From Collinsella aerofaciens (GTDB taxonomy: Bacteria; Actinomycetota; Coriobacteriia; Coriobacteriales; Coriobacteriaceae): DNA of 40,466 nt. The notes beneath the pieces were generated by a model. It saw nothing but the letters and a program-made list of their open reading frames with translations. It searched no databases and was not told where the DNA came from. Position numbers and translations under genes: made by a program. Below, piece after piece: positions 3,902-34,722 of this stretch. Each line of letters opens with the position of its first letter. Within the stretch, counting starts at the first letter, position 1. The stretch lies in NCBI RefSeq assembly GCF_015552075.1, contig NZ_JADNDZ010000057.1, forward strand, positions 1-40,466, in the 5' to 3' direction.

Positions 3902-3959
3902 CCTCGCTATCCAGACGGCGCCATCTGCGCATCGAATCCGCATAACGTGGACCCAATGT
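3902..3959 (-). promoter_or_regulatory. putative expression platform of the lysine riboswitch
   Basis: The 3' strand of P1 and following bases (CGCTATCCGGA, 3969-3959) can pair with TCTGGATAGCG (3915-3905) as an 11-bp helix with one G-U pair. That segment abuts the GAGG Shine-Dalgarno (3905-3902). It also overlaps a competing hairpin CAGATG/CGTCTG around GCGC, so P1 formation and the downstream helix are mutually exclusive. No T-tract terminator is visible, which suggests translational control. The simple reading (free aptamer pairs next to the SD) does not by itself give the expected OFF-with-lysine logic, so the mechanism remains open. Confidence 0.4.
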
Positions 3960-3962
3960 CCG

Positions 3963-4120
3963 GATAGCGCTCCCGCATTGCTGCAGACAGTCCTGTGGGT
4001 GTTTCCCACAGGCCCACCAGGTTGTTCGTGCCCGTAAAACCCAGTTCGGCGGGTTTCGCCTCCCCACGGGGTCAAAGCCTGCCGGCTCGCCCGCGGCTCT
4101 TCGTGCCCGCGCCTCTATCA
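3963..4120 (-). promoter_or_regulatory. lysine riboswitch (L-box) aptamer
   Basis: Read on the minus strand, the leader of lysA matches the L-box aptamer in order. P1 is GATAG (from 4119) pairing with CTATC (to 3963). It is followed by the conserved AGAGGCGCG and AAGAGCC, then GGGGAGGCG and CGCCGAA, as in Bacillus lysC leaders. A P4-like hairpin has perfect 8-bp arms (CCTGTGGG with CCCACAGG). CTGTC introduces a short P5 (CTGCA/TGCGG) capped by a GCAA tetraloop, and GGAGCGCTATC closes P1. The size (about 158 nt) fits the class. Known L-boxes reduce expression of lysine synthesis or uptake genes when lysine binds, which suits the downstream lysA-dapA-dapB-dapH operon. Confidence 0.88.
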
Positions 4121-4147
4121 AGTGGTAAAGACCCTATCACGTTGCAC

Positions 4148-29617: not shown

Positions 29618-29770
29618 TTGCTAGCAGGCGGAAATTCCAGTCCCAAAGTGATCATCACCAGTAACGCCTGCGCTCCCAGCAACGACACCCATCCATTCAG
29701 ATCCTCAGCCCCAGCTCGTAGCCAAGCCGCCGTCCACTCCAGATGCCCTGATTGCTACGTGGCGGCAGGG

Positions 29771-29891
29771 GCCCTACAGGGTAAAGCTCTGAAAACTTTC
29801 CGCAGGACGCATGAAACCCCCGCCGCACGAAGTGCGCAGCGGGGGTTTCATGCATGTCCGAGGACGTTTTCAGAGCTTTACCCTGTAGGGT
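29771..29891. repeat. long nested palindrome between ackA and pta (element A)
   Basis: Outer arms of 25 bp (29772-29796 with 29866-29890) are perfectly complementary. Inside, 29809-29823 pairs perfectly with 29839-29853 (15 bp), and CGCAC/GTGCG closes a central GAA loop (29824-29836). It lies between convergent genes, where it can act as a bidirectional terminator or 3'-end stabiliser, but has no flanking T-run. The architecture resembles elements B (33381) and C (33584), with a core beginning TTTCCGCA in place of AGTTCCGCA. The stretch 29618-29770 shows no gene. Confidence 0.8.
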
Positions 29892-29909
29892 CCCGAGGGG
29901 ATATGTTCG

Positions 29910-30890
29910 CTACTCAGCCATCTGAGCCTGGACGGCGGTGATGGCCACGACACCCACGATGTCGTCGGCAGAGCAGCCGCGCGAAAGGTCGTTGACCGGC
30001 TTGGCGATGCCCTGCAGGATGGGGCCGTAGGCGTCAGCACCGGCGAAGCGCTGGACCAGCTTGTAGCCGATGTTGCCTGCCTCGAGGTCGGGGAACACGA
30101 GCACGTTGGCCTTACCAGCGACGGAGGAGCCGGGAGCCTTGAGCTGGGCGACGGTGGGGACGATGGCGGCATCGAGCTGCAGGTCGCCGTCGATGGCGAG
30201 CTCGGGAGCCTTCTCCTTGCAGAACTTCACGGCCTCCTGGACCTTCTTGGCGACCTCGCCGCCGGCGGAGCCCATGGTGGAGTAGGAGAGCATGGCCACG
30301 TGCGGCTCAACGTTGCCCATGAAGGTGGACCAGGAGTGAGCGGAGGCGATGGCGATCTCGGAGAGCTCGTCGGAGGACGGGTTGATGTTGAGGCCGCAGT
30401 CGGCGAAGATCAGCGTGCCGTCGGTGCCGAACTGCGGGGTATCGGTGCACATCACGAAGAAGGCCGAGACCAGCTTGGTGCCCGGGGCGGTCTTGAGGAT
30501 CTGAAGCGCGGGGCGCAGGGTGTCGGCGGTGGAGTGGCAGGCGCCGGAGACCAGGCCGTCGGCGTCGCCCATCTTGACCATCATGGTGCCAAAGTAGGTG
30601 GCGTCCATCACCTGGGCGCGAGCCTGCTCGATGGTAACGCCCTTCTTGGCGCGGAGCTCGGCAAACTTCTGCGCGTACTCCTCGTGCTTCTCGGCATTGC
30701 GCGGGTCGATGACGGTGGCGCCGGGAACGTTGATCTCGTCGGGGTTGCCCAGGATGACGATCTTTGCCAGGCCCTCCTCGATGATCTTGGTGGCCGCGAC
30801 GATGGTGCGCGGATCTTCGCCCTCGGGCAGGACGATCGTCTTAAGGTCGGCCTTGGCAGCAGACTTCATACGGTTAAGGAAATCGCTCAT
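29910..30890 (-). CDS. pta: phosphate acetyltransferase
   Basis: Pta interconverts acetyl-CoA and acetyl phosphate, feeding the two acetate kinases encoded next to it. The 326-residue single-domain form has the Pta signature LPEGEDPRTIVAATKIIEEG near the N-terminus. SGACHSTADTLRPALQILKT and a late FPDLEAGNIGYKLVQRFAGADAYGPILQGIAKPVNDLSRGC complete the family pattern. AAGGAG lies 6 nt before the ATG. It is convergent to the second ackA and so separately transcribed. Confidence 0.95.
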   Translation of the reverse strand: MSDFLNRMKSAAKADLKTIVLPEGEDPRTIVAATKIIEEGLAKIVILGNPDEINVPGATVIDPRNAEKHEEYAQKFAELRAKKGVTIEQARAQVMDATYFGTMMVKMGDADGLVSGACHSTADTLRPALQILKTAPGTKLVSAFFVMCTDTPQFGTDGTLIFADCGLNINPSSDELSEIAIASAHSWSTFMGNVEPHVAMLSYSTMGSAGGEVAKKVQEAVKFCKEKAPELAIDGDLQLDAAIVPTVAQLKAPGSSVAGKANVLVFPDLEAGNIGYKLVQRFAGADAYGPILQGIAKPVNDLSRGCSADDIVGVVAITAVQAQMAE

Positions 30891-31121: not shown

Positions 31122-32324
31122 ATGCAGATTACCTCAGGCCTGCCTGAAGGCTTTAACGCCGGCGCGTACGACATGATTGTCGTCGGTGCTGGATATGCCG
31201 GTGCCGTTTGCGCCCGCCGTCTTGCCGAGACCATCGGCTATCGTGTTGCCGTTTTGGAGCGCCGTAGCCACATAGCGGGCAATGCCTACGACTGCACTGA
31301 CGAGGCCGGAATCCTGATTCACGAGTACGGTCCGCATATCTATCACACCTTTAACGAGCGCGTGCACAATTTCCTGTCGCGCTTTACCAAGTGGACGGAT
31401 TATCAGCACAAGGTGCTCGCCAACATCAACGGTACCCTTATGCCCGTGCCCTTCAACCATGCGAGTCTCAAGCTCGCCTTTGGTGACGAGCGCGGCGAGG
31501 AGCTGTATCAGAAGCTCGTGGAGACCTTTGGCAAGGATGTCAAGGTGCCCATTATGGAGCTGCGTAAGAAGAACGACCCCGACTTGGCCGAGGTCGCCGA
31601 TTACGTCTACGAGAACGTCTTTTTGCATTACACCATGAAGCAGTGGGGCCAGACGCCCGATCAGATCGATCCCTCGATCACCGGTCGCGTTCCCGTCTTT
31701 GTGGGCGATGATGACCGCTACTTCCCGCAAGCCCCCTTCCAGGGCATGCCGCAGGAGGGCTACACGGCGCTCTTTGAGCACATGCTCGACCACGACCTGA
31801 TCGACGTGTTCTGCGACGTGGACGCCCACGATCTCTTTGAGATCGACGAGACCACCGTCAAGATCGACGGCAAGGTTTATGGTGGCGAGATCGTCTATAC
31901 CGGTCCGCTCGATGAGCTGTTCAACCTCGACTTGGGTGCGTTGCCGTACCGCACACTCGATATGAAGTTCGAGACGCTCGATATGGACCAGTTCCAGCCC
32001 GTGGGCACCGTCAACTACACCACGAGCGAGGACTACACGCGTATCACCGAGTTCAAGAACATGACCGGTCAGGTCCTGCCCGGCAAGACCACCATCATGA
32101 AGGAGTACTCTAAGGCCTATACGCCCGGCTCGGGCGAGACGCCGTACTACGCCATTCTTGAGCCCGAGAACCGTGAGCTCTATGAGCGCTATCTTGAGCG
32201 CGTCCAGAACCTGACGAACTTCCACCCGGTGGGTCGTCTGGCCGAGTATCGTTACTACGATATGGACGCTGTGACCAATTCCGCCCTCGATCTTTCGGAT
32301 GAGATTATCGCCTGCCATGCATAA
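31122..32324 (+). CDS. glf: UDP-galactopyranose mutase
   Basis: This flavoenzyme converts UDP-galactopyranose to UDP-galactofuranose, the donor for galactofuranose in surface polysaccharides. The 400-residue protein has the FAD dinucleotide motif MIVVGAGYAGAVCARRLAE (about 18-36), RRSHIAGNAYDC, HEYGPHIYHTFNE with the conserved His/Tyr region, and LPYRTLDMKFE. Length is near the usual 365-400. AAGGAG precedes the ATG. The stop overlaps the next gene start (ATGCATAA), so the glycosyltransferase is translationally coupled. Confidence 0.95.
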   Translation: MQITSGLPEGFNAGAYDMIVVGAGYAGAVCARRLAETIGYRVAVLERRSHIAGNAYDCTDEAGILIHEYGPHIYHTFNERVHNFLSRFTKWTDYQHKVLANINGTLMPVPFNHASLKLAFGDERGEELYQKLVETFGKDVKVPIMELRKKNDPDLAEVADYVYENVFLHYTMKQWGQTPDQIDPSITGRVPVFVGDDDRYFPQAPFQGMPQEGYTALFEHMLDHDLIDVFCDVDAHDLFEIDETTVKIDGKVYGGEIVYTGPLDELFNLDLGALPYRTLDMKFETLDMDQFQPVGTVNYTTSEDYTRITEFKNMTGQVLPGKTTIMKEYSKAYTPGSGETPYYAILEPENRELYERYLERVQNLTNFHPVGRLAEYRYYDMDAVTNSALDLSDEIIACHA

Positions 32325-33348
32325 AGTCATAACATTCGGTATTCCCTCGTATAACGCCGCCAAGGACATGGACCATTGCATTACCTCCATCTTGGAGGGG
32401 AGCAATTACGCCACCGATATCGAGATTATCGTGGTGGACGACGGCTCCAAGGACGAGACGGCCGCCAAGGCCGACGAGTGGGAGGCCCGTTATCCTGGAA
32501 TCATCCGCGCGGTGCACCAGGAGAACGGCGGTCACGGTATTGCCGTCCTTTCGGGTCTGCGCGAGGCGCAGGGCACCTACTACAAGGTTGTTGATTCGGA
32601 CGACTGGCTTGACGGCGCTGCCCTTTCGACCATGCTGTCGATTCTGCGTGGCTTTGAGGAGCGCGACCAGCGCGTTGACCTGTTTATCTCGAACTACGTG
32701 TACGAGAAGGTTTACGAGGGCACGCATACCGCTATTGGCTACAAATTTGCCCTGCCGCGCAAAAAGATCTTTTCTTGGGATCAGATCGGTCATTTCCGCC
32801 TGGACCAGAACCTACTCATGCACAGCCTGTGCTATCGCACGGATGTGCTGCGCGAGTCCAACCTTCCCATGCCGCCGCACACGTTCTATGTGGACAACAT
32901 CTACGCCTACGTGCCGCTGCCGCGTTGCAAGACCATGTACTACGCCGACATCGACCTCTATCGCTACTTTATCGGTCGCGAAGGCCAGAGCGTCAACGAG
33001 GCAACGATGGTCAAGCGTCTGGACCAGCAGTTCCGTGTTACGCGTATCATGATGGAGTCGTACCACTTGTACAGCGATGTTGAGTCGTCGCGTCTGCGTT
33101 CGTACATGATGGGCTACTTCACCATGATGATGGCGATCTGCTCGGTTCTCACCAAGCTTTCCGAGGAAGATTGCGCCGACGAGCGCCTAAAGATGCTGTG
33201 GAATGATTTGAAGGCCTACGACGAGCGCATGTATCGTCGTGCCCGCTACGGCGTGGTCGGGTTCTTCACCAATCTGCGCGGACGGGCCGGAGACAAAACC
33301 ACACTCGGCCTATACCGTCTTGCCTCAAAGATCTTCAAATTCAACTAG
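32317..33348 (+). CDS. family 2 glycosyltransferase
   Basis: This 343-residue enzyme has the GT-A fold in its N-terminal half: ITFGIPSYNAAKDMDHCITSIL, DIEIIVVDDGSKDETA (nucleotide-sugar Asp), and YYKVVDSDDWLDG with the DxD metal motif (about 92-98). No transmembrane helix is evident; a basic C-terminal tail (KIFKFN) may sit at the membrane. Coupling to glf suggests it uses UDP-galactofuranose or extends a galactofuranose-containing glycan, an inference from neighbourhood. The ATG at 32317 overlaps glf by 8 nt. Confidence 0.88.
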   Translation: MHKVITFGIPSYNAAKDMDHCITSILEGSNYATDIEIIVVDDGSKDETAAKADEWEARYPGIIRAVHQENGGHGIAVLSGLREAQGTYYKVVDSDDWLDGAALSTMLSILRGFEERDQRVDLFISNYVYEKVYEGTHTAIGYKFALPRKKIFSWDQIGHFRLDQNLLMHSLCYRTDVLRESNLPMPPHTFYVDNIYAYVPLPRCKTMYYADIDLYRYFIGREGQSVNEATMVKRLDQQFRVTRIMMESYHLYSDVESSRLRSYMMGYFTMMMAICSVLTKLSEEDCADERLKMLWNDLKAYDERMYRRARYGVVGFFTNLRGRAGDKTTLGLYRLASKIFKFN

Positions 33349-33380: not shown

Positions 33381-33490
33381 GGCCCCTTGGCCTTTAGTTT
33401 GCTACTGCGAACAGTCCTGCTCGCACGGAAAGCACATTAAGTGCTTTCCGGCTCGTGCGGAACTTGTATCAAACTAAAGGCCAAGGGGCC
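33381..33490. repeat. cruciform element B: conserved core with private 21-bp arms
   Basis: Outer arms 33381-33401 and 33470-33490 are perfectly complementary over 21 bp. The 68-nt core contains ACAGTCCTG (33411-33419), an inner hairpin GGAAAGCAC/GTGCTTTCC around ATTAA, and GGCTCGTGCGGAACT (33450-33464). The same core occurs inverted in element C 200 bp away, but with wholly different outer arms. There is no T-run after either arm. Confidence 0.85.
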
Positions 33491-33515
33491 TCTGCTATAA
33501 GAATCGATTGTCAGT

Positions 33516-33584
33516 TTATTTGAATTTGAAGATCTTCGACGCGCGGTACACAGGGGCCTGGGCTGAAAAGAATCTGGTTGGTAG
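33516..33584 (-). pseudogene. 3' remnant of a second glycosyltransferase gene
   Basis: On the minus strand this stretch reads LPTRFFSAQAPVYRASKIFKFK then TAA. The end VYRASKIFKFK closely matches the last residues (LYRLASKIFKFN) of the family 2 glycosyltransferase ending at 33348, at the DNA level too (AAGATCTTCAAATTCAA in both). It appears to be the last few codons of a paralogue in the opposite orientation, cut off by element C immediately upstream. No start or body remains. Confidence 0.45.
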
Positions 33585-33708
33585 GTTGCCCGGTGGGGCT
33601 TGGTTATGTTTGTCGCGAGTTCCGCACGAGCCGAAGAGCACTTAATGTGCTCTTCGTGCGAGCCAGGACTGTAGAGCAGCAAACATAACCAAGCCCCACC
33701 GGGCAACC
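33584..33708. repeat. cruciform element C: conserved core with private 29-bp arms
   Basis: Outer arms 33584-33612 and 33680-33708 are perfectly complementary over 29 bp. The core carries AGTTCCGCACGAGCC (33618-33632), an inner hairpin GAAGAGCAC/GTGCTCTTC around TTAAT, and CAGGACTGT (33664-33672). It is the core of element B in reverse orientation. Inner-stem differences between B and C are matched on both sides, so pairing is preserved. Confidence 0.85.
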
Positions 33709-33720
33709 GGACGAGCTAGT

Positions 33721-34722
33721 TTACTTGGCGGCGCCGGGGATGCCGTGGGAGGTTTTGGCGGTTTTGGCTCCGTTTACGATGGCGGTTTGTAGGGCCCTTA
33801 CGGCAAGCATACCCAGCAGGTCTAGGGGTACGGCGGCGCTTGCCTGGGTGCCTAGTTTGCCGCTGGCGAGGGTGTAGATGGTGTCGCCGTCGTTGGTGGT
33901 GTGCGTGGGGCGGATGGCGTGTGCATAGGCGTCTGCGGCCATCTGGGAGACCTTGGTGGCCTGGGCCTTGGTGAGCTCCACGTTGGTGACGATGCAGCTG
34001 ATGGTGGTGTTGGTGCGGTCGAGCGGCATTTGCATGGAGCCGGCAGCGGTAAAGGCTGCGAGCTCCATGTCGACGATCTGGTCGCTATCGGCCGCAGTGC
34101 GCATGCCGGCGACCCACTCGCCGGTGAGGGGATCGACGACGTTGCCGCAGGCGTTGACCGAGACCACGGCGCCCACCTTGACGGGGCCGAGCGCCACGGC
34201 GGCGGCTCCAAGACCTGCCTTCATGCAGGTGGCAGGACCCATGAGCTTGCCTACCGTGGCACCGGTGCCGGCTCCAACGTTGCCCTGCTCAAGCGTGGTG
34301 GGGGTGTTATCGAGTGCCTCGCGAACGGCGGCGATGCCGGCATCAATGTCGGGACGCACGGTGGGGTCGCCATAGGCGAGATCGAAGATGCAACTGGAGC
34401 ATACGATGGGCACCTGCGTGGGGCCGACGGGCAGGCCGATACCGCGGCTCTCGAGCTCGCGGGCAACGCCGCTTGCTGCCTCGAGGCCAAAGGCCGATCC
34501 ACCCGAGAGGCAGACAGCGTGGACCTTATCGACGGTGTTCTCGGGATGCAGCAGGTCGGTCTCGCGCGATGCCGGGGCACCGCCGCGAACGTCAACGCCG
34601 CCGGTGGCGCCTTCTGCTGCCACGATTACGGTGCAACCGGTGCCGGCCTCCTCGTCCGTATAGTTGCCAAAGCAAAAGCCATCGACATCGCAAACGTCAA
34701 TGGCCTCAAGCAGTGTGTCCAT
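33721..34722 (-). CDS. P1/S58-family peptidase (DmpA-like)
   Basis: The 333-residue protein belongs to the self-processing Ntn-type S58 family, which includes DmpA aminopeptidase and beta-peptidyl aminopeptidases. Visible are the N-terminal FCFGNYTDEEAGTGCTVIVA, CLSGGSAFGLEAASGVARELE, and GNVGAGTGATVGKLMG around the autoproteolysis site (about 145-160). It is normally cleaved into two chains to become active on N-terminal residues of small peptides. No signal peptide is seen, so it is probably cytosolic. AGGAG precedes the ATG at 34722. Confidence 0.87.
   Translation of the reverse strand: MDTLLEAIDVCDVDGFCFGNYTDEEAGTGCTVIVAAEGATGGVDVRGGAPASRETDLLHPENTVDKVHAVCLSGGSAFGLEAASGVARELESRGIGLPVGPTQVPIVCSSCIFDLAYGDPTVRPDIDAGIAAVREALDNTPTTLEQGNVGAGTGATVGKLMGPATCMKAGLGAAAVALGPVKVGAVVSVNACGNVVDPLTGEWVAGMRTAADSDQIVDMELAAFTAAGSMQMPLDRTNTTISCIVTNVELTKAQATKVSQMAADAYAHAIRPTHTTNDGDTIYTLASGKLGTQASAAVPLDLLGMLAVRALQTAIVNGAKTAKTSHGIPGAAK

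Follow-up and report, generated by a model that had tools for sequence, protein, structure and literature searches.

A multicopy family of hairpin elements in Coriobacteriia with a conserved core and perfect or near-perfect arms private to each site

Hairpin elements in the window

The window (the whole 40,466-nt stretch of DNA that was analysed, contig NZ_JADNDZ010000057.1 of Collinsella aerofaciens) contains two long hairpins, elements B and C, between a glycosyltransferase family 2 gene and a peptidase S58 gene, together with a divergent relative, element A. The features are as follows.

29716-29745, plus strand: probable inverted copy of the 3' end of the minus-strand gene at 29910-30890, on the far side of element A
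29768-29894, minus strand: element A, divergent relative; arms about 29768-29796 and 29866-29894; internal loop GTCCTCGGAC / TGCGGAAAGT; long apical stem
32299-33348, plus strand: glycosyltransferase family 2 gene; stop codon 63 nt ahead of the B core
33322-33347, plus strand: 3' coding end of the glycosyltransferase gene, the gene-side half of an inverted pair centred on B; GCCTCAAAGATCTTCAAATTCAACTA
33381-33490, plus strand: element B; arms 33381-33401 and 33470-33490, 21 bp perfect; core 33411-33464
33517-33542, minus strand: decayed inverted copy of the glycosyltransferase gene end, on the GGAACT side of B; 22/26 nt identical
33584-33708, minus strand: element C; arms 33584-33612 and 33680-33708, 29 bp perfect; core 33618-33672 on the minus strand
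33721-34722, minus strand: peptidase S58 gene; stop codon 49 nt ahead of the C core (minus strand)

The core of element B (ACAGTCCT...TGCGGAACT) includes an apical stem, 33427-33435 paired with 33441-33449, and the loop ATTAA, and the arms of B can be extended to 25 nt at 96%. A sequence-only reading of this DNA had claimed that B and C have a core in common in opposite orientations but arms that are perfectly self-complementary within each element and unrelated between them. Coordinates and alignment bear this out: the 54-55-nt cores match on opposite strands, the 21-bp and 29-bp arms are perfect at the positions given above, and the likeness between the arms of B and those of C is limited to the innermost bases. 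Both elements fold with z-scores of -9 to -13 relative to dinucleotide shuffles, none of which folded equally well.

Element A is the third long hairpin of the window and has a divergent core, GTCCTCGG...TGCGGAAAGT. The gene side of its probable gene-edge pair lies at 29919-29950, and 2 of 2000 shuffles gave an equally good pair. The window also holds a lysine riboswitch (RF00168, 76.5 bits) at 3957-4125 on the minus strand.

A core family of the class Coriobacteriia

Searching for the core in this and related genomes, as the sequence-only reading had suggested, uncovered a class-wide family. BLAST returned 29 matches in this Collinsella genome, a few of them partial and many at contig ends, corresponding to about 28 copies. 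The complete relative G014 likewise has about 28, gut Collinsella and their relatives carry about 25-30 elements per genome, and among related genomes the number varies from 0 or 1 to 29 or more. These copies are extragenic and often paired in opposite orientation. The core has the structure 5'-TGCTCnGACAGTCCT - apical stem - TGCGGAACTCGCG-3', which is kept across the class at 1 to about 29 copies per genome; the hosts identified by pattern scan (Collinsella, Slackia, Adlercreutzia, Gordonibacter, Rubneribacter, Atopobium and others) all belong to Coriobacteriia. We built a covariance model from 59 copies, in which 10 of the 18 base pairs show compensatory changes, a pattern that template switching would also give. 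In that 59-copy alignment the core has invariant unpaired bases and is bordered by GCTC... and ...CGCG. The model detects the family in 72 of 149 genomes of the class, with 1 to 29 or more copies in many Coriobacteriales and 1-3 in the other orders. High copy numbers (up to 29 or more) are found in genomes that we take to be Coriobacteriaceae, Eggerthellaceae and some Atopobiaceae.

The family was not found in a phylum sample outside Coriobacteriia. Scanning IMG/VR with the core pattern gave no match, and phage carriage was rejected on this ground. No Rfam family matched B, C or 11 distant copies at the curated gathering threshold, and among open-licence PMC papers none was found that describes a conserved core whose arms are copied from the flank, in agreement with the earlier remark that no described family fits. 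The Rfam entry Collinsella-1 RNA (RF01700, PMC2864571) is likewise reported from Actinobacteria and the human gut; it too gives no match to the present elements. Elements B and C belong to a multicopy family that has not previously been described.

A reduced 'mini-core' subfamily, ACATTCTCG...GCGAAACT, occurs at two of the sites described below, def-fmt and nrdD-nrdG (L354-L376, L383-L407); it has no apical stem, yet its arms are equally perfect and private. Short model matches in Eggerthellaceae may represent the same subfamily. Many contigs of the draft genome analysed here, G000, end inside the core (L003, L008, L010-L023, L025-L027), which indicates that short-read assemblies break at the elements, and hybrid arms in draft genomes may in part reflect misassembly.

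Private arms and inverted copies of gene edges

Across 260 copies the longest perfect arm run has a median of 21 nt, which falls to a median of 0 and a maximum of 11 when arms are swapped between sites. The long stem around each copy, perfect or nearly so, thus has a sequence private to its site in the other copies as well. Some of our site clusters are over-split. At most about 15-19 nt, adjoining the core, are ever common to the arms of different sites, and wholesale copying of arms between sites was rejected for this reason.

At a given site, different strains can carry different perfect arms that have changed on both sides, within flanks that are 92-98% identical. Site C has two arm classes, GGTTGCCCGGTGGGG... 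and GTCGGTCGGAGGCGGGC..., with identical outer flanks; L244 is a hybrid there, and L232 carries a deletion allele. At def-fmt there are five arm types in addition to hybrids, and between L328 and L061 the whole 33-bp stem differs in flanks that are 93-98% identical. Even at a flank identity of at least 97%, arm identity is below 0.7 in 11% of pairs. Hybrid arms and deletions recur among the alleles, and inversion of the core between its arms also occurs, as seen for B in L246 and for def-fmt in L369. Stem changes between orthologous copies are two-sided in 103 cases and one-sided in 18, so that the compensation of inner-stem differences noted earlier for B and C extends to the family.

Several features of the arms are recorded here as observations. 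Left arms are G/T-rich and right arms C/A-rich at all loci, 19-36 nt from the core, and the inner part is AT-rich; this composition is common to the sites although the sequence differs. An A.C mismatch (ATCATCC / GGACGAT) recurs at inner-arm positions 13-16 from the core (for example in L094, L109 and L143) and is kept across genera in otherwise perfect arms; in RNA from the opposite strand it would be a G.U wobble. At a serine dehydratase site (L203, L206, L216, L217), a remnant of one allele's left arm sits next to the complete arms of a second allele, and it looks as if a new unit was built beside a dead one.

Sites are stable within the C. aerofaciens complex, and for one of them both occupied and empty alleles exist. 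Between the genes that, from their sequences, we take to be nrdD and nrdG (def and fmt are named on the same basis), the gap measures 10-21 nt in the empty alleles of G022 and G015, which are fairly distant relatives, and about 430 nt in the C. aerofaciens complex, where it holds two back-to-back units. Unit 1 lies behind nrdD, and beyond it the last codons of that gene recur as an inverted copy (18/18 exact in G014). Unit 2 has a reduced core, lies ahead of nrdG and carries an inverted copy of the first codons of nrdG, including the ATG. The empty alleles hold neither arms nor gene-edge copies, so the arms were not already present in the empty site. Two other candidates for empty sites were discarded: L144, which is a hybrid of two neighbouring elements, and the deletion allele of C (L189/L232, with CCG microhomology), in which what is left of the right arm looks derived.

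Inverted copies of gene edges are also found beyond nrdD-nrdG. For the copy beside element B, 0 of 2000 shuffles scored as well; at element C we looked for a gene-edge copy and detected none. With genes called by a home-made codon-usage caller, 59 sites have the nearest gene edge on the ACAGTCC side of the core and 5 have it on the GGAACT side. Inverted copies exceed the 99th percentile of controls at 11 of the 59 sites and the 99.9th percentile at 6 (binomial p=2e-11), the remaining 48 sites having no detectable copy; none of the 5 sites with the opposite arrangement shows one. The clearest pairs lie 4-14 nt off the exact mirror position. The 59 edges comprise 47 stop codons and 12 start codons of divergent genes, and because the polarity rule holds for both kinds, it follows the polarity of the core and not that of the gene. 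In a separate count of gene neighbours, a codirectional gene lies to the left at 39 of 59 sites, and at 24 of 59 the core is 29-64 nt behind a codirectional stop codon.

Origin and upkeep of the stems

We propose, with a probability of roughly one in two, that a conserved DNA hairpin primes one-directional fold-back copying of its flank and that later template switching rewrites the stem. A strand that terminates at the 3' end of the core would fold back on the core hairpin and prime copying of the DNA on the 5' side, such that the right half of each unit would be a copy of the left half. Template switching in the palindrome during replication or repair would then repeatedly rewrite and re-perfect both arms, and would also flip the core and erase the kinship of arms between sites, while the older, outer part of the copy would decay. 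This sequence of events would account for the perfection and privacy of the arms, the polarity, the gene-edge copies, the hybrids, the core inversions and the wide spacing found on the side of the copy.

Several observations weigh against this proposal. No insertion or fold-back event has been caught in progress, and the empty gap at nrdD-nrdG and at def-fmt is too short to supply the perfect arms, so that the arms, at least, must have another source or a later origin. Most sites (48 of 59), element C among them, have no detectable gene-edge copy. The common arm architecture (AT-rich inner part, then G/T-rich on the left and C/A-rich on the right) is not predicted by copying of random flanks. 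Conservation of the core across the class requires a selected function or a trans factor, and none was found. Exchange of whole cores between copies could also yield two-sided stem changes. The sequence-only reading had suggested either a mobile core that produces inverted flanks on insertion, for example through fold-back or template-switch synthesis, or strong selection for a long stem of any sequence. The generation of inverted flanks gains support from the near-mirror gene-edge copies, which lie on one side of the core and are missing from empty sites, and from arms that change en bloc. Simple copying of the existing flank does not account for the innermost perfect arms, given empty gaps of only 10-21 nt; mobility itself is suggested by copy number and distribution. 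Selection for a stem of any sequence is possible as an additional force.

The same stems could instead belong to a structured RNA in 3' untranslated regions, acting as a terminator, an RNA stabiliser or a protein-binding site, in which RNA-level selection would keep a long stem of any sequence through compensatory mutations. We consider this unlikely, although it would fit the covariation of the core, its position close behind codirectional stop codons (in the other orders, the core of most examined copies lies 14-41 nt downstream of housekeeping genes such as rho, eno, yebC and purA), its conservation across the class and the stability of sites in the C. aerofaciens complex. Selection on RNA should, however, tolerate G-U pairs over A-C pairs on one strand, and no such preference was found in the outer arms, where isolated mismatches outside the inner 16 nt number 22 G.T and 28 A.C. 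A first count had given an A.C excess of 50:23 (p=0.002) together with better folding of the bottom strand, but one-strand RNA selection was dropped because the excess fell entirely within the inner 16 nt (16:0), at one recurrent position. The apical stem has 953 Watson-Crick, 9 GU, 12 AC and 7 other cells, that is, 0.9% GU; a stem-filtered count of 1013 Watson-Crick to 2 GU was discarded because the filter was biased. Self-templated correction of DNA gives just such a pairing pattern; for the apical stem, exchange of whole cores is an alternative. Termination fares no better: by inspection no U-tract follows the stem, and U-tract terminators downstream of the elements are as common as at control genes (29/101 versus 86/294), so both an intrinsic terminator and terminator substitution were rejected. 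Nor do the upstream genes form a common regulon, none being common to sites or genera, and where the neighbour is a divergent start codon, at 12 sites, any such RNA would be antisense. Hybrid alleles whose arms are broken occur often, and an RNA function leaves the inverted gene-edge copies unexplained.

More improbable, in our view, is a REP-like or MITE-like element that a transposase would move as a single-stranded hairpin, its arms belonging to the element and appearing private through fast divergence. The multicopy, extragenic and often oppositely paired occurrence, as in BIMEs, and the uneven copy number among related genomes would suit such an element. However, Y1 transposases are absent from G090, with its 29 or more copies, and from G175, G120 and G005, no element lies near any of 18 Y1 loci, there is neither a conserved GTAG/CGTC foot nor an IMG/VR match, and inverted copies of the local gene are not expected in a conventional mobile element. 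We give little credence to mutational self-perfection alone, in which chance palindromes would be perfected by template switching around a passive core with no insertion; it would explain the template-switch signatures, but a class-wide core with invariant unpaired bases in up to 29 copies per genome needs copying or selection. Least credible of all is insertion of the core into the loops of pre-existing terminator stems that then became the arms. The position close behind stop codons would agree with this, but the empty nrdD-nrdG sites, the one clean case, contain no such stem, and the arms lack a U-tract, are AT-rich beside the core and, at 29-50 bp, exceed typical terminators.

REP, BIME and REPIN sequences are small multicopy extragenic palindromes that lie mainly downstream of genes, often as inverted pairs (PMC3733652), and in all these respects the present elements are like REPs and BIMEs. 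REP copies, however, have a palindrome of 20-40 bp in common, whereas here only the core is common and the arms are private; the present elements also have no conserved GTAG/CGTC tag and no RAYT/Y1 partner, and have inverted copies of local gene edges attached. Membership of the REP/RAYT system was rejected on palindrome sequence, tag and transposase, Y1_Tnp being absent from the copy-rich genomes named above.

Among mitochondrial hairpin elements we know of none that has a common core with target-copied arms. Mitochondrial repetitive hairpin-forming elements (PMC2800124) are likewise multicopy intergenic hairpins but are organellar. Inverted repeats are known to undergo template switching that homogenises their arms and flips the spacer (PMC8604942), and such switching can also form perfect stems and keep them perfect (PMC8794818). 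The present elements resemble such quasipalindromes in arm homogenisation, in multi-base two-sided changes, the arms changing together without wobble intermediates (103 versus 18), and in spacer inversion (L246, L369). Those cases are single mutational events, whereas here the behaviour recurs around one core at dozens of sites throughout a class and with one-sided polarity. In yeast, fold-back templated inverted duplications at DNA breaks (PMC11724301) likewise produce short inverted flank copies by hairpin fold-back priming; these centre on the break itself, and the present ones on a conserved inserted core.

Taken further, and tentatively, the family may represent a new class of bacterial mobile DNA, in which a hairpin core of about 54 nt would spread without a linked transposase and, wherever it settles, would make its own long stem through one-directional snap-back copying of the flanking gene edge, after which replication template switching would keep the stem perfect while its sequence turns over. 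The compensatory changes carry a warning, in that by themselves they are no proof of RNA function. If the fold-back and template-switching proposal is true, a common gut bacterium would harbour a natural, repeated template-switching experiment at dozens of sites per genome around one fixed core, and the origin and upkeep of perfect long stems would become testable from sequence data. It would also account for assembly breaks and for enlarged intergenic regions in Collinsella, such as those that split the def-fmt and nrdD-nrdG gene pairs.
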